Origin: Candidatus Bipolaricaulota bacterium
GTDB taxonomy: Bacteria; Bipolaricaulota; Bipolaricaulia; Bipolaricaulales; Bipolaricaulaceae
Length of the DNA: 37,226 nucleotides
Direction: 5' to 3'
Assembly: GCA_937921255.1 (NCBI GenBank)
Contig: CAKZSO010000009.1
Span: 1-37,226 of the forward strand
Made by a program: the position numbers and the translations under genes
The notes under the pieces: model-generated
Databases searched by the model: none
What the model saw: only the letters and a program-made list of their open reading frames with translations
Told to the model about the DNA's origin: nothing
Shown here: positions 808 through 36,642 of the stretch, one piece after another
Layout: every line of letters begins with the position of its first letter
Numbering within the stretch: position 1 is the first letter of the stretch

Positions 808-3117
808 ATGGCACCGAAAGAAGAACAGGTTGAGCTCAAACTGAAGGTGGCCGAGGCCCATCAACCAGACGTGGGACGGGGGATCGCCCGCCTCACGTCC
901 GAGCACATCGAATCGCTCGGGGTGTCGCCCGGCGAGCCGATCGAGCTCGAGGGGGCCCGGGTGACCGGGGCCATTGCTGCCGTGGCCTACCAGGCTGACG
1001 CTGGGCTCGACATCGTCCGCATCGACGGCCTGATCCGCGCCAACGCCGGGGTCGGCGTGGGAGAAACGGTGCAGGTGCGGAAGGCGAAGTGGAAGCCCGC
1101 AACCCACGTCACCCTCGCCCCGGCGCGAAAGGGGCTCCACCTCGTCGCCCCCCCGGACAGCCTGCGGGCGATCCTCGCTGGGCGGGTCGTGCGGACAGGG
1201 GACGTCGTCTCCACCGCGGCCCGGGCCGAGGGGAGCCCGTTCGGGGACAACCTCCTGTTCGAGCGCATCTTCCGCGAGTTCACCCAGATGGCGCCTGGGA
1301 TTGCCCCAGGGTTCGGCCTCGGGGAGATCCACCTCAAGGTGGTGAGCACCCAGCCCGGCGGCCTCGTGCGGATCACCGCCGAGACGGGGATCGAACTCCT
1401 CCCCGAACACGTCGAGGTTGCCGAGCGGGGGCGGGAGGTTCCCGAGGTCGCCTACGAGGACATCGGCGGCCTCAAGGACGTGATCCACAAGATCCGCGAG
1501 ATGGTCGAGCTCCCCTTGAAGAAACCCGAGCTGTTCGACCGACTGGGGATCGAGCCCCCGCGCGGGGTGCTCCTCCACGGCCCGCCGGGGACGGGGAAGA
1601 CGCTCCTCGCCAAAGCGGTGGCCACGGAGACCGACGCCCACTTCATCGCTCTGTCCGGACCGGAGATCATGTCCCGCTTCTACGGGGAGTCGGAGGGCCG
1701 GCTGCGGGAGATCTTCGAGCAGGCGGAGAAGAACGCCCCGGCGATCATCTTCATCGACGAGCTCGATTCGATTGCCCCCCGCCGGGCGGAGGTCACGGGC
1801 GAGGTCGAGCGACGGGTCGTGGCCCAGCTCCTCACCCTCATGGATGGCCTCAAGCAGCGGCGGAACGTGATCGTGATCGGGGCCACGAACCGGGTCGAGG
1901 CGATCGACCCTGCCCTGCGCCGGCCGGGGCGGTTCGACCGGGAGATCGAGGTCCGCGTTCCCGACCGCGACGGGCGGAAAGAGATCCTGATGGTCCATAC
2001 CCGGGGGATGCCCCTGGCTCCCGATGTGGACCTCGACAAGCTGGCGGGACTCACCCACGGGTTCGTGGGCTCGGACATCGCCGCGCTGGCCCGCGAGGCG
2101 GCGATGAACGTCCTCCGGAAGCTCCTGCCCAAGATCAACCTCGACGAAGAAGGGATCCCCCCCGAGGTGATCGAGGAGCTCGTCGTGCGGTGGGCGGACT
2201 TCGACCGGGCAATGAAGGAGGTTCGCCCCTCGGCGATGCGCGAAGTGATGGTCGAGGTCCCGACCGTGACCTGGGCGGACATCGGGGGGCTGGAGGAGGT
2301 CCAGCAGCTCCTCCGCGAGGCGGTGGAGCTCCCCCTGACGACGCCGGAGGCGTTCCAGCGGCTCGGGGTCACGCCCCCGAAGGGGATCCTCCTCTACGGG
2401 CCCCCCGGGACGGGGAAGACCACGCTCGCCAAGGCGGTGGCGAGTGAATCTCAGGCCAACTTCATCACCGCCAAGGGGTCCGAGCTCCTCTCCAAGTGGT
2501 ACGGGGAGAGCGAGCAGCGGATCGCCGAGGTGTTCCGCCGGGCACGGCAGGTGGCCCCCGCCGTGGTGTTCCTCGATGAGCTCGACGCCCTCGTCCCCCG
2601 AAGGGGGTCGGCAGTGGGAGAGCCCCACGCCACGGAGCGGATCGTGAACCAGATGCTCGCCGAGATGGACGGGCTCGAGGAGCTGCGGCGGGTGGTCGTC
2701 ATCGGGGCCACGAACCGGCCCGACCTCGTGGATCCGGCTCTCCTCCGGCCGGGGCGGTTCGACGAGCTCATCTACGTCCCGATCCCCGACTTAGGGGCAC
2801 GGCGGGCGATTTTCGGCGTCCACACCCGGGGGATGCCCCTGTCCCCCGACGTGGACCTCGAGGTGCTCGCCGCCCGCACCGCGGGGTACACGGGGGCCGA
2901 CATCGCCGAGGTGTGCCGCAAGGCGGGCCGGATCGCCCTGCGCGAGTCCCTCACCTCCACCAAGGTCACGATGCCCCACTTCGAGGCGGCCCTCGAGAAG
3001 ACCCCGCGGTCGGTGACCCCAGAGATCGAGGAGCAGTACAAGCGCCTGGCCAAGAACCTCCGCGGGGCGGTGCGGCGAATCGGGCTCGTCCCCGAGGACA
3101 AGGAGACCCCGTCGTGA
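808..3117 (+). CDS. Cdc48/VAT-type double AAA+ ATPase (p97 family unfoldase)
   Basis: A protein of 769 residues with the full Cdc48/VAT layout: an N-terminal double-psi barrel and CDC48 domain 2 (about 10-200), then two AAA+ modules. D1 has Walker A GPPGTGKT at 258-265 and Walker B IIFIDE at 313-318. D2 has GPPGTGKT at 531-538 and VVFLDE at 586-591. Both have ATNR and [17 protein letters not shown] sensor and arginine-finger regions. Family members are hexameric unfoldases that thread proteins through a central pore. The family is universal in archaea and eukaryotes but patchy in bacteria, so ancient transfer is a reasonable inference. ATG 808 follows GAGGGAG. The stop overlaps the next gene as GTGA. 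The partner protease or adaptor cannot be seen here. Confidence 0.95.
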
Positions 3118-25921: not shown

Positions 25922-28078
25922 GTGGCCGGGCTCCTGCAGTTTCTCGTTGCTGCCCTGTTCCTGCTCTCCGCCGCCGCGGTGGCCGGGCCGGAGAAACTCG
26001 ACCCGTTTCTGCGGCTCCTTCTCGCTGCGCAAGACGGGATGGGACCGGTCTCCCTTCTCGCTCCGACGGTCCTGCCCACGCTCGTCGCCTTGGGGGAGGC
26101 CCGCCACCCTCCGGGGGTGGAAGGGGGGCCAGCAATGCCGATCCAGGTGTTCGTCCGGACGGAAGACCCCAATGCCGCGCGGACACTCCCCCTGTTCCGG
26201 CCGCATCAGGTTCTGGACCGGCTCGCCACCGGCGAGGTCAACCTCGCCGACCTCACGGCCCTCGCCGCCGACCCGCAGGTGGTCTACATCGAGGCCAGCC
26301 GACCGGTGTACCCCACGCTCGACCGCTCCGTGCCCGAGACAGGGGCCCCCGCCCTGTGGTACGCGACCCCCAGTGCGACCGGCCGAGGCGTGATCATCGG
26401 CATCGTAGACACGGGTATCGACATCTTCCACCGCGACTTCCGTGTGGACCGGGACAACAACGAGAGCGAAGAGGGGTCACGGATCTTCTACCTGTGGGAT
26501 CAGACCGGGGTTGGGGCCACAGGGTTCCCGTATTGGTGGGGCGACGTACTCGCCGAAACCTACTATGGACAGGCGTTTTCTCGCGCTGAACTGGAATGGG
26601 CGATCGCCACCGGGTCCTCCCCCACCGTCGACACCCACGGCCACGGCACCCACGTCGCCGGAATTGCGGCCGGAGATGGCTCGGCATCGCCGATGGGGTT
26701 GCCGGGGCTCGCTCCCGAGGCCGAGCTGGTGGTGGTGAAGACCACGTTCTACCAGAACGCCGTGGTGGATGGAGTGCGGTTCGTGTTCGAGGCCGCGCAG
26801 GCCCGTGGCCTGCCCGCGGTCGTCAACCTGTCGCTCGGCGGCCACAGCGGCCCCCACGACGGCACCTCCCTGTTCGAGCAGATGCTTGACGCCATGCTCG
26901 ATCGTCCAGGCCGGGCAATCGTGGTCGCCGCCGGAAACGAAGGGGACCGCCGGATCCACGTCGCCGGCGACGTCCGGACTCCCACCACGTGGCACCTTGA
27001 GGTAGAGAAGAGCACGGTATCTGTTCAGCTCTGGCACACGGGCACAGCCAGCTTCTCGCTCGAGGTGAGAACCCCGGGCGGTGAGTCCGTGACCGTTCTT
27101 CCATCCAGCCAGCGCTGGGCATCCACTGCTTCAGGGGGTGTGTGGCTTGACAACACGTCCCTTCCGGACCCCCGCAACCTCGGCCGCCACATCTACATCG
27201 CCTTGAGTGACGTCACACCCGGGACGACGTGGGCCCTCACCCTCACCCCGGTTATCGGCGGGGGGCGGGTAGACGGGTGGGTGGAAAACCCCGCGGCGGC
27301 TCAGTTCAGGGAAGGGGACGCGAACTACACGATCAGCGAGCCGGGGAACGCCCACCGCGTGATCACCGTCGGCGCTTACGTCACGAAGAACCAATGGACT
27401 TCCATCTTGGGAGAGCAAACCGGCGATGGAGTCGTGGGAACGCTCGCGTCGTTCTCCTCTCGCGGACCGACCCGGGACGGTCGCCTCAAGCCTGATCTCG
27501 CTGCTCCGGGGGCGTGGATTGCGTCGGCCCGGTCGCGGCTTGCCTCCCCCGCGGGGTGGCTGGTCTTGCCGGGCGGGGAGTACACGATGCTTCTTGGGAC
27601 GAGTATGGCCGCCCCTCACGTGACGGGGGCAGTGGCCCTGCTGTTCTCGCGTCGACCGAACCTCACCTGGTCCGAGGTCAAGGACGCTCTGCTCGCTGGA
27701 GCAAGGGTCGACACGTACGTCGGCGTGGCGCCAAACCGATTGTGGGGCGCGGGAAAGCTTGACACTGCACGCAGCACAGAGGTCATTGGAGGCGGTGTGC
27801 CGACGGGAAAGCCTTCTCTTCAGACCAAGGCCAACCCTGTATCGGGCGAGGCAGTGTTCACCTACCGGTGCCCTCCCGAGACCCGGTGGGCAAGCCTTCA
27901 CGTGTACGACCTCACCGGGCGGCTTCTGTTCACCCAGCTCCTCCCGCTCCCCGCGGGCGAGGCACGGTGGCCGCTGTCCACCACGTCGGGACAGAGAGTG
28001 GCCAGCGGGCTCTACCTCGCCGTGGTCGTCACGGATCGAGCCCAGTCAGAGATGGTGCGGGTGGTGGTGCAGCGATGA
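25922..28078 (+). CDS. Secreted subtilisin-like serine protease (S8) with FlgD/Por-type C-terminal domain
   Basis: A protein of 718 residues. Residues 1-21 form a signal peptide. The S8 domain (about 150-620) has the full triad: D163 in GIVDTGID, H241 in THGHGTHVAG and S561 in GTSMAAPHVTG, with N339 in AAGNEGD as oxyanion residue. A beta-rich insert of about 150 residues separates N339 from the serine region, as in some large subtilases. The last 85 residues (about 635-718) form a beta domain with NPVSGEAVFTYR, LHVYDLTGRLL and ASGLYLAVVV, the pattern of FlgD-Ig and type IX secretion tails. It begins a three-gene operon with two barrel-like proteins, so it is probably exported to the surface. 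Substrate unknown. Confidence 0.92.
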   Translation: MAGLLQFLVAALFLLSAAAVAGPEKLDPFLRLLLAAQDGMGPVSLLAPTVLPTLVALGEARHPPGVEGGPAMPIQVFVRTEDPNAARTLPLFRPHQVLDRLATGEVNLADLTALAADPQVVYIEASRPVYPTLDRSVPETGAPALWYATPSATGRGVIIGIVDTGIDIFHRDFRVDRDNNESEEGSRIFYLWDQTGVGATGFPYWWGDVLAETYYGQAFSRAELEWAIATGSSPTVDTHGHGTHVAGIAAGDGSASPMGLPGLAPEAELVVVKTTFYQNAVVDGVRFVFEAAQARGLPAVVNLSLGGHSGPHDGTSLFEQMLDAMLDRPGRAIVVAAGNEGDRRIHVAGDVRTPTTWHLEVEKSTVSVQLWHTGTASFSLEVRTPGGESVTVLPSSQRWASTASGGVWLDNTSLPDPRNLGRHIYIALSDVTPGTTWALTLTPVIGGGRVDGWVENPAAAQFREGDANYTISEPGNAHRVITVGAYVTKNQWTSILGEQTGDGVVGTLASFSSRGPTRDGRLKPDLAAPGAWIASARSRLASPAGWLVLPGGEYTMLLGTSMAAPHVTGAVALLFSRRPNLTWSEVKDALLAGARVDTYVGVAPNRLWGAGKLDTARSTEVIGGGVPTGKPSLQTKANPVSGEAVFTYRCPPETRWASLHVYDLTGRLLFTQLLPLPAGEARWPLSTTSGQRVASGLYLAVVVTDRAQSEMVRVVVQR

Positions 28079-28881
28079 GAGCATCGGCGGCAGCGCTTGC
28101 CGTGCTTGGGGTCGCCTTGATCGGGGTCGGCGCGTACTTTGTGGGCGGGGATATCCTGTTCGAGCTGGCGGCCGGAGCCCGCACCGCAGGAATGGGTGGA
28201 GCCGGGATTGCCCTGCCCACGAGTGACGCCCTGTTCCTCAACCCGGCGGGGCTCCCGTGGCTCGAGGGTGTCCAGTTCATTTCCTCCTACGGAGACGTGT
28301 TCGGCGTCGCCCACTTCGGTGCGCTGTCGGTTGGGTTGCCGGGCGTAGCGATGGCGGGGGTGGTTCTCGACGCGGGGACGATCGGCCCGGCCCTGGCCTA
28401 CCGCACCACCGGTGCCGCGCTGGGGGCAGGCGTGCGCCTGGGACCGCTGGGTTCCGGGGTACGGGTACGGGTGGCGAGGCCCCTGGCCCCTGTTCCCAGC
28501 CTGGGCGGGGCCCTGGACATCGCCCTCCTCTGGCGCGGCGCCATCCAGGTGGGAGCCGTGTGGCGCGCCGTCCTCTCCAAAGCCCCTGTTGCCGGTGAAT
28601 TCTGGCCTGCCGAGCTAGGAGTTGGCCTCGCGGTGCCGCTCCGCGGTCCGGGCTTCAACGCGGCACTTGCCCTCGACATCACGGGCGTGGGTGCTCATCC
28701 GTCGTTCGCCATCGGCGGCGAGGTGGGGGCTGACTGGCTCCTGATTCGCGCTGGGTACGGGCCTGCCGGAATCGCCTTCGGCGGCACGGTGGGGTGGAGA
28801 TCGTTCGCCCTCGACTGGATGGTTCTTCTCCATCCCGTTCTCCCGGCCGCGTTTCGCGTATCCTTTTCAGTGAGGATCTGA
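28075..28881 (+). CDS. PorV/UPF0164-like outer-membrane barrel protein
   Basis: A protein of 268 residues. ATG 28075 overlaps the protease stop as ATGA. Near the N-terminus it has GARTAGMGGAGIALPTSDAL followed by FLNPAGLPW, the signature of PorV/PorQ, FadL-like and UPF0164 barrels. The rest alternates short beta strands and glycine-rich turns, and the protein ends FRVSFSVRI, like a barrel closing strand. The signal peptide is less clear than usual. In type IX secretion PorV carries cargo to the attachment complex. The link here is an inference from similarity and from the cargo-like protease directly upstream. Confidence 0.75.
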   Translation: MRASAAALAVLGVALIGVGAYFVGGDILFELAAGARTAGMGGAGIALPTSDALFLNPAGLPWLEGVQFISSYGDVFGVAHFGALSVGLPGVAMAGVVLDAGTIGPALAYRTTGAALGAGVRLGPLGSGVRVRVARPLAPVPSLGGALDIALLWRGAIQVGAVWRAVLSKAPVAGEFWPAELGVGLAVPLRGPGFNAALALDITGVGAHPSFAIGGEVGADWLLIRAGYGPAGIAFGGTVGWRSFALDWMVLLHPVLPAAFRVSFSVRI

Positions 28882-28882
28882 C

Positions 28883-31800
28883 ATGAGAACACTTGTGGTT
28901 GGCCTCCTGCTCGCGGGGAGCATCGCCCTGGCCCAGCAGACCCCCAGCTTCAACCTGACGGTGAGCGGGGAGAAGACCTGGACCATCTGGCTCGGCTTGG
29001 GGTCGGCAACCGTACTGGCGGATCAGAACCTGACTCCCGGTCAACCAACCCTCACCCAGACCCTGCGCGCGATGATCGAGGGCAAGGCCCTCGGGTTCAT
29101 CACCCTCAGGGCGAGTTTCAACGATCAACTCGACGTGGGGTTCCAGGACTTCCTCCTCACCGTGGAACGCACCCCGTGGACTGGGGAGCTGGGACGATTC
29201 GTGGTCGGTGCAGAAGGGGAGGGGCTAGGGGTATACAACAAACGCGTCCTCGGAGCCCGGGTGGGGTATCTCGGAGGGAACGTCAACTTGCACGGGCTCG
29301 TGACGCGGCTGGAGGGCGTTTCCGAATCCCGCACGTTCCGCGGAGAGCAAGGTCGGGGGGAGATCCTGTTCACGGTGAACGATCCCGACGAGCCGTGGCG
29401 GGAGGCACCCTACCTCCGCTCCGTCGAGGGCCTTGCGCACTGGCCGCTCCGCATCCAGTTTGTGGAGGGACTGACGAAGGTCCAGCTTCGCGTGGATGGA
29501 ACCCTTGCCCTGTGGTCTTTCCTCGCTGACTGGGGACTCGACTACATTCGAAACGACCTCACTGCTCAGCTCGCGACCCCATTGACGTCGGGCGAGTACG
29601 TTGTCCTGCGCAACGAACGGGACGATCTCGCCCTTCGCGTTGCACCATCCGTCTTGGCCCGGAAGCGCATCCAAGAGGCGATTGAGGCCCACAACGTGCG
29701 CCTCGGGTTGGCGGGGAAGGACCGCAAGACGTACCCGTTTGTCGAAGCGAGCGAGCTCGAGGGCCGGTTCCTGGGCGGGTTCATCTCGTTCCTCGCCGTC
29801 TTGGTGGACGAAGATGTCTACCCGTTCTCCGATCTCGCGCGCCGCCGGTACCTGCCCCTCGGTGAGCGGGACGTGGTCGAGGGGTCCGTCGAGGTCTGGA
29901 TCCGACGGCCGGGGGAGAGCGAGTTCCGCCCATCGACCGACCCGGCCCTTGCGGAGTACGTGTGGGTGCTCTTGCCCGCCGACGGGATGCTCCGCATTGC
30001 GTTTCCTTCGGCCTTCTTCGCGGGAGGGGCGATCCGCGCCACATTCGCCTACCATCGGGAGGGAACCACCTTCTCTCTTGGTCCCTCGCTCGTTCCGGGC
30101 TCAGAACGGGTTGCGCTCAACGGACGGCGCCTCACTCGGGGGACCGACTACAGCCTGGACTACACGTCGGGCATTCTGCTCTTGTTCCCGTCCCTCGGGC
30201 CTGATGACGAGCTGAAGGTGGACTTCGAGCGTCAGCGTGGAGGCTTGGGCGTAATCACCGACTACGAGCGCAACCTGTTTGGCCTAATCCTGACCATTGC
30301 TGACTGGGATGGGCTCAGGCTTGCCCTGTACCGAGCGATGGACCTCGGCCTGCCCCGGCCCACTACGCACACCATGCCCAACACCCACACCGTGGCCGCG
30401 CTCTCCGCGTCGGGCAAGATCGCTGGATGGACCTACAGCTTGAACCTCGCCGGATCAGAGAACATCTTCCCGGTTGACGACAACGCCCGTGTGCCCACTC
30501 CGAACCGAGTCCACACCATCGTCAGCGCTCAGGCTCCGGACGGGGAATACCTAATCCTCGGGCACGACAATGGCCTCACCGTGCACAAGGACGGGATGTT
30601 CTCCGGGTACGGTCCCGCCCACGGCCTGGCGGGGCGATCGGTGTACGCTGTCCTCCCTCTGCCTGGGCAGCTGCTCGTCGGCACAGATGCCGGACTGACA
30701 GTGGTCCGCCTCACCGAGCCGACTCCGTTCGATCGCGTGAGGAGCTGGGTCAGGGTCACGGGAACGGAGCGGCTGCCGGGAACCGAAGTCCTGGCTCTTG
30801 CCCGCGGAGACGGGCTCGTCTACCTCACCACGGAGAGCGTTCTCGTCTGGTTCGCGGTGACCGACAGCGAGGACCCCAAGAAGTGGGAGACGGCCCCCCT
30901 CCCCGAGGACGGAGGCTTCCCGACGGCCCTCCTCTGGGCCGAGGGGAGCCTCTACCTCGGGACAAGCACGGGCTTGTACGTGGGCAGCGCCGGGCTGTGG
31001 ACCCCTGTCGTCGAGGCTGCGGGGGCCGTCCACGCTCTTCTCGCCCGCGGCGGTGACGTGTACGTGGCCTCAGATCATGGGATCCGGATCCTGCGTGGTA
31101 CAAGGGGGGTGGGGTGGGTCGTGTTCGGCAAGGCCGTGTACGATCTTGCGCTTAAGGAGGGCATCCTGTGGTTCGCAGCTGAGGACGGGCTGTGGCACGA
31201 GGACCGGATCACCCCCGTCGTGACCGAGCCCGCCACTGCAGTCGGCGCGGGGCAGGGAGCCATATGGGCTGCTGCCGTGGCGCGCGAAGACTTCCAGCTC
31301 GACCTGTGGCGGGTGACCGACCGGGTGGAGCGACTGCCCCCATCGCGGACCAGGATCGACGGCCGCGACTTGGGGCGATTCCAGGACATCCCGGCGGCAG
31401 ACCACACCCGGCACGGCACCTCGGCAAGCCTTGCCCTGAGCCAGACCGTCGGCGATTGGCAGTGGGAGGTGCGAGCAGCGAGCCGCCTCCCGGGGTACGA
31501 GGAGATTGGGCGGAGCGGCCGCTCTGACGGCCACGGGATGAGCGTAGCTGCCCGCTACAGCGGCGGGCCAACGGCCTTTGCTCTCCAGGCGCGCTGGGAC
31601 GTGATCGACCTCTCCACACAGCCCCGGGGGCGTCTGGCAGCGGGTCTGGATTGGCGCTGGTCTGACGGCCCCACGGCGACCCTTTCCCTGACGCCCACCG
31701 TCACCGGGGATGGGCTGCTCTCCTTCCGGCAGCTGGAGCTAGGATGGCAGGCCGGCCTATCGAACAAGACTCAAGCGTGGACATGGGGTGTGAGCATCAC

Positions 31801-32740
31801 GGGCACACTCCGCGCACCCGCTCCTGTTGCGTGGGGTCAACTGACGGGCAACGTTTCCCTCCTTCCTCTGCCCGGGTGGACGATGGACCTAAGCTGGACG
31901 CGCCCGTTCCGAACGATTGGAGCTCCCGGCAGCGAGACCTTCCGCGCCGTACTCCGGTGGGCCACCGAGACCGATCGCCTGTCGCTGAGTGCGAGCTGGC
32001 AGGAGGAGTGGCGCCACCACCTCACCGGCGATACGTGGCGCGACGAGCGCACCCTTCAAGGCGATGCACGCTGGAAGGCGTGGTCCATCACCGGTGGCAG
32101 TCTCACCCCCCGCCTGTCCGCGACAGTCCGGCTCAGTCCCACTGAGCAGCGTTGGAGTGCCCGGGGGGAAGCCGACGTCGCTCGCGCTCCGAACGTAGTT
32201 CGCGTCAAGGTCCTGCTCGGGCAGGGTTTTCTGCCGGTGACCGAGCGGTCTGACCGCACCCTCGGTCTGTCCGCGTACTGGGAGACCACGGCATGGGAGG
32301 GGGTGCGAGCCTCTCTGCAGTGGGACAGATCGTGGATCACCCTCTCCCACCCCCGCTACCCGACACAGACCACGGACAAGGAGGAAGTTGCGTTGCGGGT
32401 GACCTGGGAACCGAAGGGCGCCGGCTGGCGCGACACCCTCACCCTAACCTGGAAACCTCGCGACCAGCAGACGACCCTGTCCAACCGACTGACATGGGTC
32501 GTGGGAACGAGTTCCCTGGCATCCGAAACGTCCGCTAGCCTGAAGGGCGAGGCCCTCGATGTGAAGACCACGGCCCAGCTCGGTTTACCCCTGGACGCCG
32601 TCCTCGTTGCTCTGGGAGCGGAGCCGATCGGCGACATGTGGGGACTCAGCGCCGAGGTGGGTCACATCGTGGCCCTCAAGGGGGAAGCCGAGCCCAAGCA
32701 CGCCCTGTTCCTGGGCGTGACCCTTGCCGTTCGGTTCTGA
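28883..32740 (+). CDS. Large exported protein with SprA-like segment, beta-propeller and C-terminal barrel
   Basis: A protein of 1285 residues. Signal peptide 1-18 (LVVGLLLAGSIALAQ). The first 500 residues are beta-rich; near 400-430 LNGRRLTRGTDYSLDYTSG resembles a motif repeated in SprA-type outer-membrane translocons. Residues about 530-820 contain at least six propeller blades, such as LILGHDNGLTV, LLVGTDAGLTVV, LYLGTSTGLYVG, VYVASDHGIRIL and LWFAAEDGLW, like two-component-regulator propellers. From 860 on, alternating aromatic strands end in FLGVTLAVRF, with a terminal F typical of outer-membrane barrels. It starts one base after the previous gene, behind GAGG. I know no family with this order of parts. 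Confidence 0.7.
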   Translation: MRTLVVGLLLAGSIALAQQTPSFNLTVSGEKTWTIWLGLGSATVLADQNLTPGQPTLTQTLRAMIEGKALGFITLRASFNDQLDVGFQDFLLTVERTPWTGELGRFVVGAEGEGLGVYNKRVLGARVGYLGGNVNLHGLVTRLEGVSESRTFRGEQGRGEILFTVNDPDEPWREAPYLRSVEGLAHWPLRIQFVEGLTKVQLRVDGTLALWSFLADWGLDYIRNDLTAQLATPLTSGEYVVLRNERDDLALRVAPSVLARKRIQEAIEAHNVRLGLAGKDRKTYPFVEASELEGRFLGGFISFLAVLVDEDVYPFSDLARRRYLPLGERDVVEGSVEVWIRRPGESEFRPSTDPALAEYVWVLLPADGMLRIAFPSAFFAGGAIRATFAYHREGTTFSLGPSLVPGSERVALNGRRLTRGTDYSLDYTSGILLLFPSLGPDDELKVDFERQRGGLGVITDYERNLFGLILTIADWDGLRLALYRAMDLGLPRPTTHTMPNTHTVAALSASGKIAGWTYSLNLAGSENIFPVDDNARVPTPNRVHTIVSAQAPDGEYLILGHDNGLTVHKDGMFSGYGPAHGLAGRSVYAVLPLPGQLLVGTDAGLTVVRLTEPTPFDRVRSWVRVTGTERLPGTEVLALARGDGLVYLTTESVLVWFAVTDSEDPKKWETAPLPEDGGFPTALLWAEGSLYLGTSTGLYVGSAGLWTPVVEAAGAVHALLARGGDVYVASDHGIRILRGTRGVGWVVFGKAVYDLALKEGILWFAAEDGLWHEDRITPVVTEPATAVGAGQGAIWAAAVAREDFQLDLWRVTDRVERLPPSRTRIDGRDLGRFQDIPAADHTRHGTSASLALSQTVGDWQWEVRAASRLPGYEEIGRSGRSDGHGMSVAARYSGGPTAFALQARWDVIDLSTQPRGRLAAGLDWRWSDGPTATLSLTPTVTGDGLLSFRQLELGWQAGLSNKTQAWTWGVSITGTLRAPAPVAWGQLTGNVSLLPLPGWTMDLSWTRPFRTIGAPGSETFRAVLRWATETDRLSLSASWQEEWRHHLTGDTWRDERTLQGDARWKAWSITGGSLTPRLSATVRLSPTEQRWSARGEADVARAPNVVRVKVLLGQGFLPVTERSDRTLGLSAYWETTAWEGVRASLQWDRSWITLSHPRYPTQTTDKEEVALRVTWEPKGAGWRDTLTLTWKPRDQQTTLSNRLTWVVGTSSLASETSASLKGEALDVKTTAQLGLPLDAVLVALGAEPIGDMWGLSAEVGHIVALKGEAEPKHALFLGVTLAVRF

Positions 32741-32792: not shown

Positions 32793-33641
32793 CTAGAACC
32801 GAACCCCGAACCCAAATCGGTGCGAGGCCGGCAGGACCGGGTGCGTGAGGAGTGCGTAGTCGATCAGGAACATCCCCCACTGCACCCCGAGGCCGAACGC
32901 CCACTGCAGACCTGCCTGAAGACGCATGCCCGCGCGAACCTCGAACAACCCCAGCGCCGACCATCCCACGCCCAGCGCGGTGTACTCCGCCGTCAAATCG
33001 GCAACGATGAGAAACCCGAGCGGGTTCACCAACGCCACCCCGGCCGCCAGATCCGTAGACCATCCATCCCCAGCCTCGCCCACCGTGGGCCCGAACCCCA
33101 GCTCGCGCAACGCGAGCCCGAACCGGAGCGGTCCCAGCGGCGTGGGCATCTGCCCAAGAAGCCCCACGTCGAGAGCAAAGCCACTCCCCGCCTCATCGGC
33201 AATCTGGACCCGGTGGTACTTGATCGTTGCCCCGCCCGATGCCGGGAACGGGAACACCCTCAAGGCGGTCAGATCGAACCCCGCCCCGACCACCGCTGCC
33301 AAGTGAGAGAAGGCCAGCGGATTGCCTGCCGGGTCCATAATTCCCCCAACCCCGAGATACCCTAACCCGGCGCCGAAGTTCGGGGCCGCGCCCGCGACCC
33401 ATGTCACGGAGTACAGCCCCATGACGCTCGACAGGCTCGAATCCGCGTGGATCCCCTTCGACCGCGCAAGCCCTGCCGGGTTGGTGAGGAGGGCTTCTGT
33501 TCCCTCGGCGAGGGCGATGTACGCCCCGCCGAACCCCATCGCCCGAACCCCAAGACCGACATCGAACGGGTTCGGCAAGGCTTGGCCCAGGGCCACCGCC
33601 CCGACCAAGGCCACGCTCAACAGCGCGAACGCTCGTCGCAT
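32793..33641 (-). CDS. Second PorV/UPF0164-like outer-membrane barrel protein
   Basis: A protein of 282 residues. Signal peptide 1-19 (RRAFALLSVALVGAVALGQ). The signature is GVRAMGFGGAYIALAEGTEALLTNPAGLAR in overlapping motifs, with the same layout as the barrel gene at 28075 but divergent in detail. The final residues are HRFGFGVRF, ending in F as barrel proteins do; both barrels also share the tail pattern LLTHPVLPAxxR/LLHPVLPAAFR. ATG 33641 is preferred over the adjacent ATG 33644, based on spacing from GAGGAGG. It lies 10 bases after the PKD-protein stop in the same operon, which suggests it works with that protein. Confidence 0.75.
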   Translation of the reverse strand: MRRAFALLSVALVGAVALGQALPNPFDVGLGVRAMGFGGAYIALAEGTEALLTNPAGLARSKGIHADSSLSSVMGLYSVTWVAGAAPNFGAGLGYLGVGGIMDPAGNPLAFSHLAAVVGAGFDLTALRVFPFPASGGATIKYHRVQIADEAGSGFALDVGLLGQMPTPLGPLRFGLALRELGFGPTVGEAGDGWSTDLAAGVALVNPLGFLIVADLTAEYTALGVGWSALGLFEVRAGMRLQAGLQWAFGLGVQWGMFLIDYALLTHPVLPASHRFGFGVRF

Positions 33642-33651
33642 CATCCCCTCC

Positions 33652-36642
33652 TCAGCGCACCACAAGGATCTTCCCGACTTCCGAAGAGATCGTCCCACCG
33701 GCCACGGTGGCCGTGACGAGGTAGAAGTAGAGCCCATCGGCGATCGTGCGCCCGTTCCCGTCCTTGAGATCCCACGTGAACTGCGTGCCTGGCACATCGC
33801 TCCGCCGCACCTCGCGGCCCAGCATGTCGAAGATCTGGATCCGGACCTCGGTTACGCCAGCGGGGAGGACCAGCTGGATGCGACACTGCGTCCGAGCAGG
33901 GTTGTCCAGCAGCCGCGTGCCGATCCCGCCGCCAACCGGCAACACCGTCACATCCCGTCCGAACCATTCCCCCCATCCTCCCGCGTCGCGGGCCCGTGCC
34001 TGAACCCGGAACACGCCGCTCACGGCGAAGGTGTGGATCTTGACGTTCGTGTCGGTGGCGACAGCCGTATCATCACCCAGCTTCCACTCGTACCCAGTGA
34101 TCGGGTCGCCATCCGGATCCGTGGCCGTGGCCGTGAACGTGACCGCCTGACCTGCCTGAGGATTCGCTGGGTTTGGTGTAATCGCGCTGACCACCGGCCG
34201 CCGATTCACCGGAGTGGCGGTCACCGTTACGGACTTCTCCTTTCTCCCAACCTCCCCGCGGCTGTTTGTAACCGAGAGAACTACGGTGTACGTGCCAGCC
34301 GCGGCGTAGGTATGTTTCGGATTCTGCGCCGTCGAGGTGCCGCCATCCCCGAACGCCCACGCGTACGTGTACGGGGTGAGGGGCGGTGTGGCGGGGTCCG
34401 TCACCTTCGAGGTGAACGCAACCTCCTGCCCCACGGCAGGATTGTCTGGGGCAAGGTCGAAGTCCACCACGGGCTGCTTTCCCACCACCTCCACCGTGAG
34501 CGTCTTCGAGCTGGACAGGCCTCCCTCTCCTGTCACGGTCAGCGTCACCTGGAACGTACCGCCGATCGCGTACTTGTGCTTAACCTCCGCCGAACCCGTA
34601 GTCTGAGCCGTCTTTCCGTCGCCGAATGCCCACCGGAAAATGGCCTTCGTGATGTCCCCCGATGGGTCGGCAATCCCGGCGGCCGGGGTAAAGGTAACAT
34701 CCACCCCTGCCTCTGGCGCAGTGGGTACCCAGCTGAAGCTCACCCCCGTCGGGTGCTTGCCGATGGCCGTGGTGATCACGGCGGGCCCCAGCAAGGCGGT
34801 CTTGTGGTGCGTCAGCAGGCCCTCAGAGTGCCACACCACGGTCTCCAGCTGAAGCTTGCGCCCCGCAGGAGCGGTGTCCTTCAGGGTCACCCAGATGTCG
34901 AGTTCGGCCGTTGTGTCGTCGGGGACTGTGTTGTTCGCCGTGGTCGGCACGCGTACCCCCGCCAAGCTCAGCCCCACGGGGTCGCTCAACACGCCCAGCA
35001 AGGCTCCGTCGGATCTTCGACGCACCTCGATCTTAGCCACGTGCTGGTCGGCCAGAGGACTGGCGGCTGCATTGCGGATCATGAGCGAGTTGATGATGAC
35101 GTCGTACGGATCGTCATCGTTGTCTTTGAGTTCCAGCCGTTGAGCGAGGAAGCGAACTCCCTGGAACACCGTTCGATCGGGAAGTGTGACCGGCTTCTCG
35201 CTTTCGAACCCCTGCCCGCCGGCAGGCCCGGTCACAAATTCCGCGCCCTCCAGGGGAGCATCGTGAGCCTCAGGCTTGCCGAAGATCTTCGAGTCTTCCG
35301 TGTGCCAGATGACGGTCTGCAACTGCACCTTCCGATCGAGAGGCACCGCCGGACCAAGCGTCACCCAGAGCTCGATGACCTCGCTCGTGTCATCGGCAAC
35401 GACGTTGTTCGAGCCAGTGGCGATACGTACTCCGCCTGATCGAAGCCCCGATGCGCCCGTCACCGACCCCATCACCGCGCCGTCTCGGGCGCGGATGACG
35501 TCGATGCGGGCGATGTGGTCGTCGGCGAGAGGCGACTCCGTAGCGATGTTCCACACCACGAGCGAGTTGACCGTGACATCATACGGATCGAGGTCGTCGT
35601 CGCCGACCTCGATGCGCTGAGCAAGAAACCGTTGGTTGGAGAACACCCGGCCACCAGTGAGGTTGTGGTTCTCCACCTTCTCGAATCCCGTCGGCTCCTT
35701 CACCGTGAAGACAGGGCCAGGCGGGGGCGGATCGGTTGTGATGTCTCTCCCCGCGCAACGCACGACCGCCTCCAGCTGGAGCTTGTGGCCCATTGGGGCG
35801 GTCAGCTTCAGCGTAACCCAAATCTCGAGGTAGAGGGTGCTGTACGGACCAGCTTTGGTGTTCGAAGTGGTGATCACCACGCCGGTTGTGGTGAGCGTCC
35901 CGACCTGACTTGTCACGCCCAGCTGGGCATCGTCGCTCGCCCGACGGACCTCGATCTTGTCCACATACGTACCCGTCAGCTTGGTCCCACCCGGGGCCAC
36001 ATTCGCGAGCACAACCTGGGAGATCGTGGTCTCGAACGGGAGGTCGGTCGCGTCCACCAGGATGCGGCCGGCGAGGAACCGCTGCCCGCGGTACACGTCC
36101 GCATCGGGAACCGTACCGTCGAACTTGACCACCGGCAATCGCACTGTGAACGTCGCCGCAGCGGCTCCGCCCGGAGGAGCGTAGTTGATCACTGCACTCG
36201 TTGGTGTGATCGCCGTTCCGCCCAGACTGAGCTTGAGGCTCAAGGGAACGTCAGCCTTTAGCTTGACGAAGATGTACAGGCGGTGGGTTCCTGGGGTGAA
36301 GGTGTTGTTGCTCAGACTACTGATGGTGATCCCGGTCCCGAGGTTGTCGCCCGAACCGACCGTGTACTTTCGAAGCGTGGGGCCGGTCTCGGTGTTCCGG
36401 CGGATCTCGATGAACTCCACCCCCGCCGCGGTCACCTGGCTCGTGGCCGCCGTGTTCTTCACCGTGATGCTGTTGATCGTGAGGTTGGGCCCAGAGGGAA
36501 CCGTGAACTGGATCACCTGGGCCAGGACCACGGCCCCGGGGGCCACGTTATCGTCAGGCAACCCGATGTTGTTGAACGTCTGGGCTACCACCGCCGGCGC
36601 CGCAAGGGCGACCGCCACCGCAAGCAACATGCACCGTCTCAT
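33652..36642 (-). CDS. Secreted PKD-domain protein with four novel beta modules and a FlgD/Por-type C-terminal domain
   Basis: A protein of 996 residues. Signal peptide 1-20. Residues about 30-175, 183-332, 333-490 and 493-630 are four copies of a beta module; copies 2-4 share QRFLAxR, a DxxxPYDVxxNSL region, HVAKIEVRR-like and LEIWVTLK-like strands, and LQLETVVWH-like ends. Copy 1 is the most diverged. Three PKD domains follow (about 633-715, 720-805, 813-895) with FRWAFGDG, YAWAFGDG and YEWKLGDD. The last 90 residues are a FlgD/Por-like tail with VRIQIFDMLGREVR and ADGLYFYLVTA. It starts at ATG 36642 behind AGGAGGTCG. It is probably a surface or adhesion protein; the four-copy module is not one I recognise. 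Confidence 0.8.
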   Translation of the reverse strand: MRRCMLLAVAVALAAPAVVAQTFNNIGLPDDNVAPGAVVLAQVIQFTVPSGPNLTINSITVKNTAATSQVTAAGVEFIEIRRNTETGPTLRKYTVGSGDNLGTGITISSLSNNTFTPGTHRLYIFVKLKADVPLSLKLSLGGTAITPTSAVINYAPPGGAAAATFTVRLPVVKFDGTVPDADVYRGQRFLAGRILVDATDLPFETTISQVVLANVAPGGTKLTGTYVDKIEVRRASDDAQLGVTSQVGTLTTTGVVITTSNTKAGPYSTLYLEIWVTLKLTAPMGHKLQLEAVVRCAGRDITTDPPPPGPVFTVKEPTGFEKVENHNLTGGRVFSNQRFLAQRIEVGDDDLDPYDVTVNSLVVWNIATESPLADDHIARIDVIRARDGAVMGSVTGASGLRSGGVRIATGSNNVVADDTSEVIELWVTLGPAVPLDRKVQLQTVIWHTEDSKIFGKPEAHDAPLEGAEFVTGPAGGQGFESEKPVTLPDRTVFQGVRFLAQRLELKDNDDDPYDVIINSLMIRNAAASPLADQHVAKIEVRRRSDGALLGVLSDPVGLSLAGVRVPTTANNTVPDDTTAELDIWVTLKDTAPAGRKLQLETVVWHSEGLLTHHKTALLGPAVITTAIGKHPTGVSFSWVPTAPEAGVDVTFTPAAGIADPSGDITKAIFRWAFGDGKTAQTTGSAEVKHKYAIGGTFQVTLTVTGEGGLSSSKTLTVEVVGKQPVVDFDLAPDNPAVGQEVAFTSKVTDPATPPLTPYTYAWAFGDGGTSTAQNPKHTYAAAGTYTVVLSVTNSRGEVGRKEKSVTVTATPVNRRPVVSAITPNPANPQAGQAVTFTATATDPDGDPITGYEWKLGDDTAVATDTNVKIHTFAVSGVFRVQARARDAGGWGEWFGRDVTVLPVGGGIGTRLLDNPARTQCRIQLVLPAGVTEVRIQIFDMLGREVRRSDVPGTQFTWDLKDGNGRTIADGLYFYLVTATVAGGTISSEVGKILVVR

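Follow-up and report, generated by a model that had tools for sequence, protein, structure and literature searches.

Papers on the type IX secretion system (T9SS) confine it to Bacteroidetes or to the superphylum of that group (PMC4793230, PMC12421860, PMC11205867). In Bacteroidota, its outer-membrane translocon SprA forms a 36-strand pore that is capped on the outside and offers PorV a docking site at a lateral opening. Substrates carry a C-terminal sorting domain (CTD), which binds PorV loops inside the SprA pore and leaves together with PorV, the process being powered by a proton motor (PMC10994853). PorZ, PorU, PorV and PorQ make up the surface attachment complex (PMC8545088), and in F. 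johnsoniae cargo and shuttle are encoded by cognate gene pairs (PMC12618676). No report of a T9SS in Bipolaricaulota was found in the open-access literature searched. A published Acetothermia genome holds no LPS genes, and whether the envelope is mono- or diderm was left open (PMC6092417).

The window analysed here is a stretch of 37,226 nucleotides from a Candidatus Bipolaricaulota bacterium. At positions 28883 to 32740 of its forward strand lies an uninterrupted reading frame of 1285 codons, which starts at an ATG and encodes an N-terminal signal peptide (residues 1 to ~18); open reading frames in other frames or on the reverse strand within these limits were taken as by-products of the long open high-GC frame. 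The encoded protein belongs to the core set of Bipolaricaulota/Acetothermia and is conserved at the protein level: a relative was found in 89 of 100 sampled genomes and in 37 of the 38 with at least 90% completeness and at most 5% contamination, almost always as one copy per genome. No relatives were met among the viral contigs and plasmids searched. Searched as a single sequence, the protein matched nothing in Pfam or the PDB; matches there came only with alignment profiles. The three-part anatomy was read from an alignment of 65 homologues. This anatomy agrees with the original prediction, which had placed a SprA-like half, a propeller and barrel strands in this order and knew of no described family of that build; no full-length family in Pfam, NCBIfam or the PDB spans it. 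The protein is best explained, with a probability of about 0.7, as the translocon in the outer membrane for a type IX-like secretion system of reduced make-up, which Bipolaricaulota share as a core trait. This reading draws on the SprA match of the N-terminal half, the recurrence of the SprA model TIGR04189 in 38 of 40 phylum genomes, the PorV and PorU CTD profile matches of the neighbouring genes, the conserved operon, and the pairing of PorV-type genes with CTD genes. From these sequence comparisons we infer that the translocon secretes protein.

A profile of the N-terminal half (residues ~20-535) was searched against 177,635 PDB sequences and had SprA (6h3i) as its sole significant match, with an E-value of 1.4e-9 and the next match at 1.1. 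The match falls into two colinear segments, of which residues 32-161 correspond to SprA 147-282 and residues 401-492 to SprA 695-784. On the forward strand of the window, these are the SprA N-terminal strand region at 28979 to 29362 (approximately residues 33-160) and the SprA core motif VPGSERVxLNGxxLxxGxDYSxDY... at 30089 to 30358 (approximately residues 403-492). This search bears out the SprA-like N-terminal half, and the barrel-like C-terminal half, used as an internal control, gave no significant PDB match, SprA included. TIGR04189 matches once per genome, at this very gene, in the 38 phylum genomes, and in 1 of 14 control genomes. In Thermus composti, a control from the Deinococcota, both the SprA and the CTD models match, the former below its cut-off, which hints at further SprA-like systems outside Bacteroidota. 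Weak NCBIfam and Pfam matches of a few N-terminal-half members to phage tail proteins were judged to be chance.

Compared with SprA/Sov (TIGR04189; 6h3i, 8gl6), the protein shares the signal peptide, the two colinear segments, a many-stranded outer-membrane C-terminal region and a PorV-like partner encoded next door. However, SprA/Sov has ~2400 residues, about twice the length found here, has no inserted propeller, and shows no detectable homology to the C-terminal half. The TIGR04189 scores also remain far below the equivalog cut-off of 200 bits, at 20.8 bits for the protein in the window and at most 36.3 bits in the phylum. The low scores, the halved length and the dissimilar C-terminal half all count against the translocon reading.

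Between the two halves, at 30503 to 31357 (residues ~541-825), lies a beta-propeller of about seven Reg_prop-type blades, supported by profile matches, blade reading and consensus, where six or more blades at residues ~530-820 had been predicted. The full-protein profile matched the propellers of BT4673-type hybrid two-component sensors, with E-values of 1.2e-27 for 4a2l, the best sequence match of the propeller, and 5.5e-23 for 3ott, and the stretches matched by 4a2l lie within profile positions ~548-789. Unlike these sensors, the protein has a single propeller, fused to outer-membrane strands, and no histidine kinase domain by Pfam. PorZ (PG93, NF052228; 5m11), whose propellers resemble the hybrid-sensor type (PMC8545088), was matched weakly (E 2.8e-4) and shares the probable T9SS context. 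Yet PorZ consists of two propellers with a CTD of its own and no barrel, whereas here one propeller is placed inside the translocon chain, without a CTD. The propeller may face either the outside or the periplasm, the strand parity being uncertain.

Directly upstream, on the same strand, the gene is preceded by those of a protease and a PorV-like barrel. The first, at 25922 to 28078, encodes an S8 serine protease (PF00082, 2.8e-44) whose catalytic triad D163/H241/S561 is kept in 47-48 of 48 aligned homologues, and which ends in a T9SS-type CTD (27788 to 28075). The profile of this CTD matched the CTD of PorU (6za2, 1.8e-8), PorZ (0.0046) and 8glj_D (0.028), the latter being a CTD in a translocon complex of known structure, and TIGR04183 reached 0.0063 against the single protease sequence. 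The second gene, at 28075 to 28881, encodes a PorV/PorQ-family barrel (NF033709) and is a candidate carrier or shuttle; its profile had the PorV of the SprA complex (6h3i_F, 6.9e-5) as sole significant PDB match, and NF033709 matches 39 of 47 of its homologues in the operon. The stop codon of the protease gene and the ATG of the PorV-like gene overlap by four bases (ATGA), and a single base separates the PorV-like stop from the ATG of the SprA-like gene, as expected of coupled translation. Among 51 informative loci, defined by at least 3.3 kb of upstream sequence, the order of protease, PorV-like and SprA-like gene is kept in 45, whereas matches to FtsH were found nearby in less than one third of the same loci. 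In the other 6, both neighbours are absent from this position, which counts against the translocon reading.

Elsewhere in the genomes, PorV-family genes were found in 37 of 40, and CTDs scoring over the TIGR04183 cut-off likewise in 37 of 40, ranging from 1 to 68 per genome. The 68 belong to one Bipolaricaulota genome of 3.7 Mb, as against 1-11 in most others. For 59 of the 98 PorV-type genes listed, a CTD gene lies directly upstream, its CTD ending at most 700 bases before the PorV gene on the same strand, where ~0.09 such pairs would be expected by chance. This arrangement resembles the PorP/SprF pairs of F. johnsoniae, in which the carrier gene directly follows the CTD cargo gene (PMC12618676), but here the carriers are of the PorV/PorQ family and the CTDs of the kind that the type A sorting model recognises. 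The window holds such a pair on the reverse strand, namely a predicted cargo of 996 amino acids with PKD domains (33652 to 36642; PKD_4 2e-41, FlgD_ig 1.7e-8) and a terminal T9SS-type CTD that scores over the TIGR04183 cut-off with its neighbours, followed directly by a PorV-family gene of its own (32793 to 33797; NF033709 2e-11). The latter, a shuttle candidate for the PKD protein, is convergent to the operon, and its annotated start is probably too far upstream; a convergent PorV-family gene just downstream of the translocon gene was seen in 16 of 63 loci. Two genomes carry the SprA-like gene and have nothing, across the whole genome, that reaches the threshold for PorV or CTD, although local profiles found the operon carrier and protease in one of them. 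Omp85 was detected in 25 of 26 genomes, indicating an outer membrane. At the other end of the window (808 to 3117, forward strand), a CDC48/VAT-type double AAA+ ATPase with CDC48_N and CDC48_2 domains is encoded in this bacterial genome.

GldL, GldM, a full PorU and MotA/ExbB were not detected in the 40 phylum genomes, which counts against the translocon reading. No match to GldL or GldM exceeded the cut-off, and the few weak matches recurred in unrelated controls, which have no true GldL or GldM. The GldN model matched none of the 40 genomes and none of the controls. MotA/ExbB matched 0 of 40 phylum genomes as against 8 of 14 controls, so that no known proton motor of the TonB/Exb, Tol or flagellar type was detected. 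A full PorU, the C25 sortase, was found over the cut-off in 0 of 40, nearly all matches of the PorU model being to the CTD region only. The protein could instead be a platform in the outer membrane, similar to the PorZ/PorQ attachment complex, that receives or anchors CTD proteins exported by another route, the SprA-derived barrel being an anchor and not an open pore. This would fit the finding of no motor to power transport, the adjoining protease gene and a propeller resembling those of PorZ and the sensors. However, SprA itself is a pore-forming translocon, and the colinear homology covers its N-terminal strands; in addition, nothing else in the outer membrane came up as a candidate for exporting the CTD cargo, if not in a systematic search. 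A platform of this kind is considered unlikely.

The C-terminal region at 31418 to 32737 (residues ~846-1285) has the character of outer-membrane strands. Inside/outside residue alternation reaches z = 10 at residues 850-1285, AlphaFold2 modelled ~25 long strands of 10-15 residues (mean pLDDT 69.8, pTM 0.51), and F is the last residue in 57 of 65 homologues, in line with the predicted aromatic strands and terminal F. By sequence, the C-terminal profile detected neither SprA nor any other PDB entry at significance. Foldseek matches of the model were large outer-membrane barrels, with LptD ranked first and usher barrels among them. SprA (8gl6) came only 46th with a TMq of 0.35, and every TM-score stayed below 0.5, so the fold class is supported and a specific relative is not; this ranking, too, counts against the translocon reading. 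A model of residues 20-1219, built from five sequences only, was of low confidence (pLDDT 45.9), and its fold matches are taken as a hint only. The Foldseek ranking could point to a barrel for biogenesis or lipid transfer, functioning like LptD, an usher or Omp85, with the SprA motif as a generic outer-membrane building block, and the SprA model match in Thermus composti would also suit such a role. Yet the matches are generic to many-stranded barrels, the operon partners are of T9SS type, and the lack of LPS genes in the Acetothermia genome (PMC6092417) argues against an LPS exporter, making this role still less probable than that of a platform.

A surface receptor or adhesin, its propeller binding a ligand as is common among propellers and its barrel serving as anchor at the predicted outer-membrane location, is very improbable given a single-copy protein conserved phylum-wide, showing homology with a translocon but none with receptors, and encoded in an operon with a carrier and a protease. 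The original suggestion was a surface receptor, a plug, or a platform that acts together with the barrel and protease encoded upstream. The platform comes close, those two genes forming a conserved operon with this one, but a role as translocon is better supported than one as receptor or plug. The accompanying notion of a terminal barrel is right in placing outer-membrane strands at the C-terminus. It is probably too narrow, because, by the SprA homology, sequence of barrel type flanks the propeller on either side. The barrel may be common to both halves, as in SprA, and we infer that they jointly form a large one; the count is ~25 strands plus those of the N-terminal half, uncertain in number, and was not forced to the 36 of SprA.

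As a translocon, the protein would receive Sec-exported CTD proteins from the periplasm, and their CTDs would bind PorV-type loops at its lateral opening. The cargo would then leave with a PorV-family carrier, often one encoded just downstream of it. The propeller inserted in the chain could serve as an integral cap or as a platform for docking, for which Bacteroidota would have the separate proteins PorZ and PorU. The S8-CTD protease encoded in the operon could itself be a cargo of the system and would trim CTDs instead of the C25 sortase PorU, and transport would proceed without a GldLM- or ExbB-type proton motor.

With the TIGR04189 cut-off missed and the motor and sortase not detected, the protein is not filed as SprA nor the system as a T9SS, yet it presumably works like the translocon step. 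It could tentatively be speculated, at slightly less than even odds, that this minimal type IX-like system diverged in ancient times and lies outside the Fibrobacteres-Chlorobi-Bacteroidetes group, with a fused translocon-propeller, PorV-type carriers beside each cargo, an S8 CTD peptidase, no proton-driven rotary motor and an envelope possibly without LPS. A phylum-wide module of SprA, PorV and CTD proteins without a motor would show that translocon and carriers can exist motor-free, and bears on the origin of the T9SS and on the purpose of its motor. For Bipolaricaulota, such a translocon would provide a route of protein export and would support the diderm envelope left open by the Acetothermia genome (PMC6092417).
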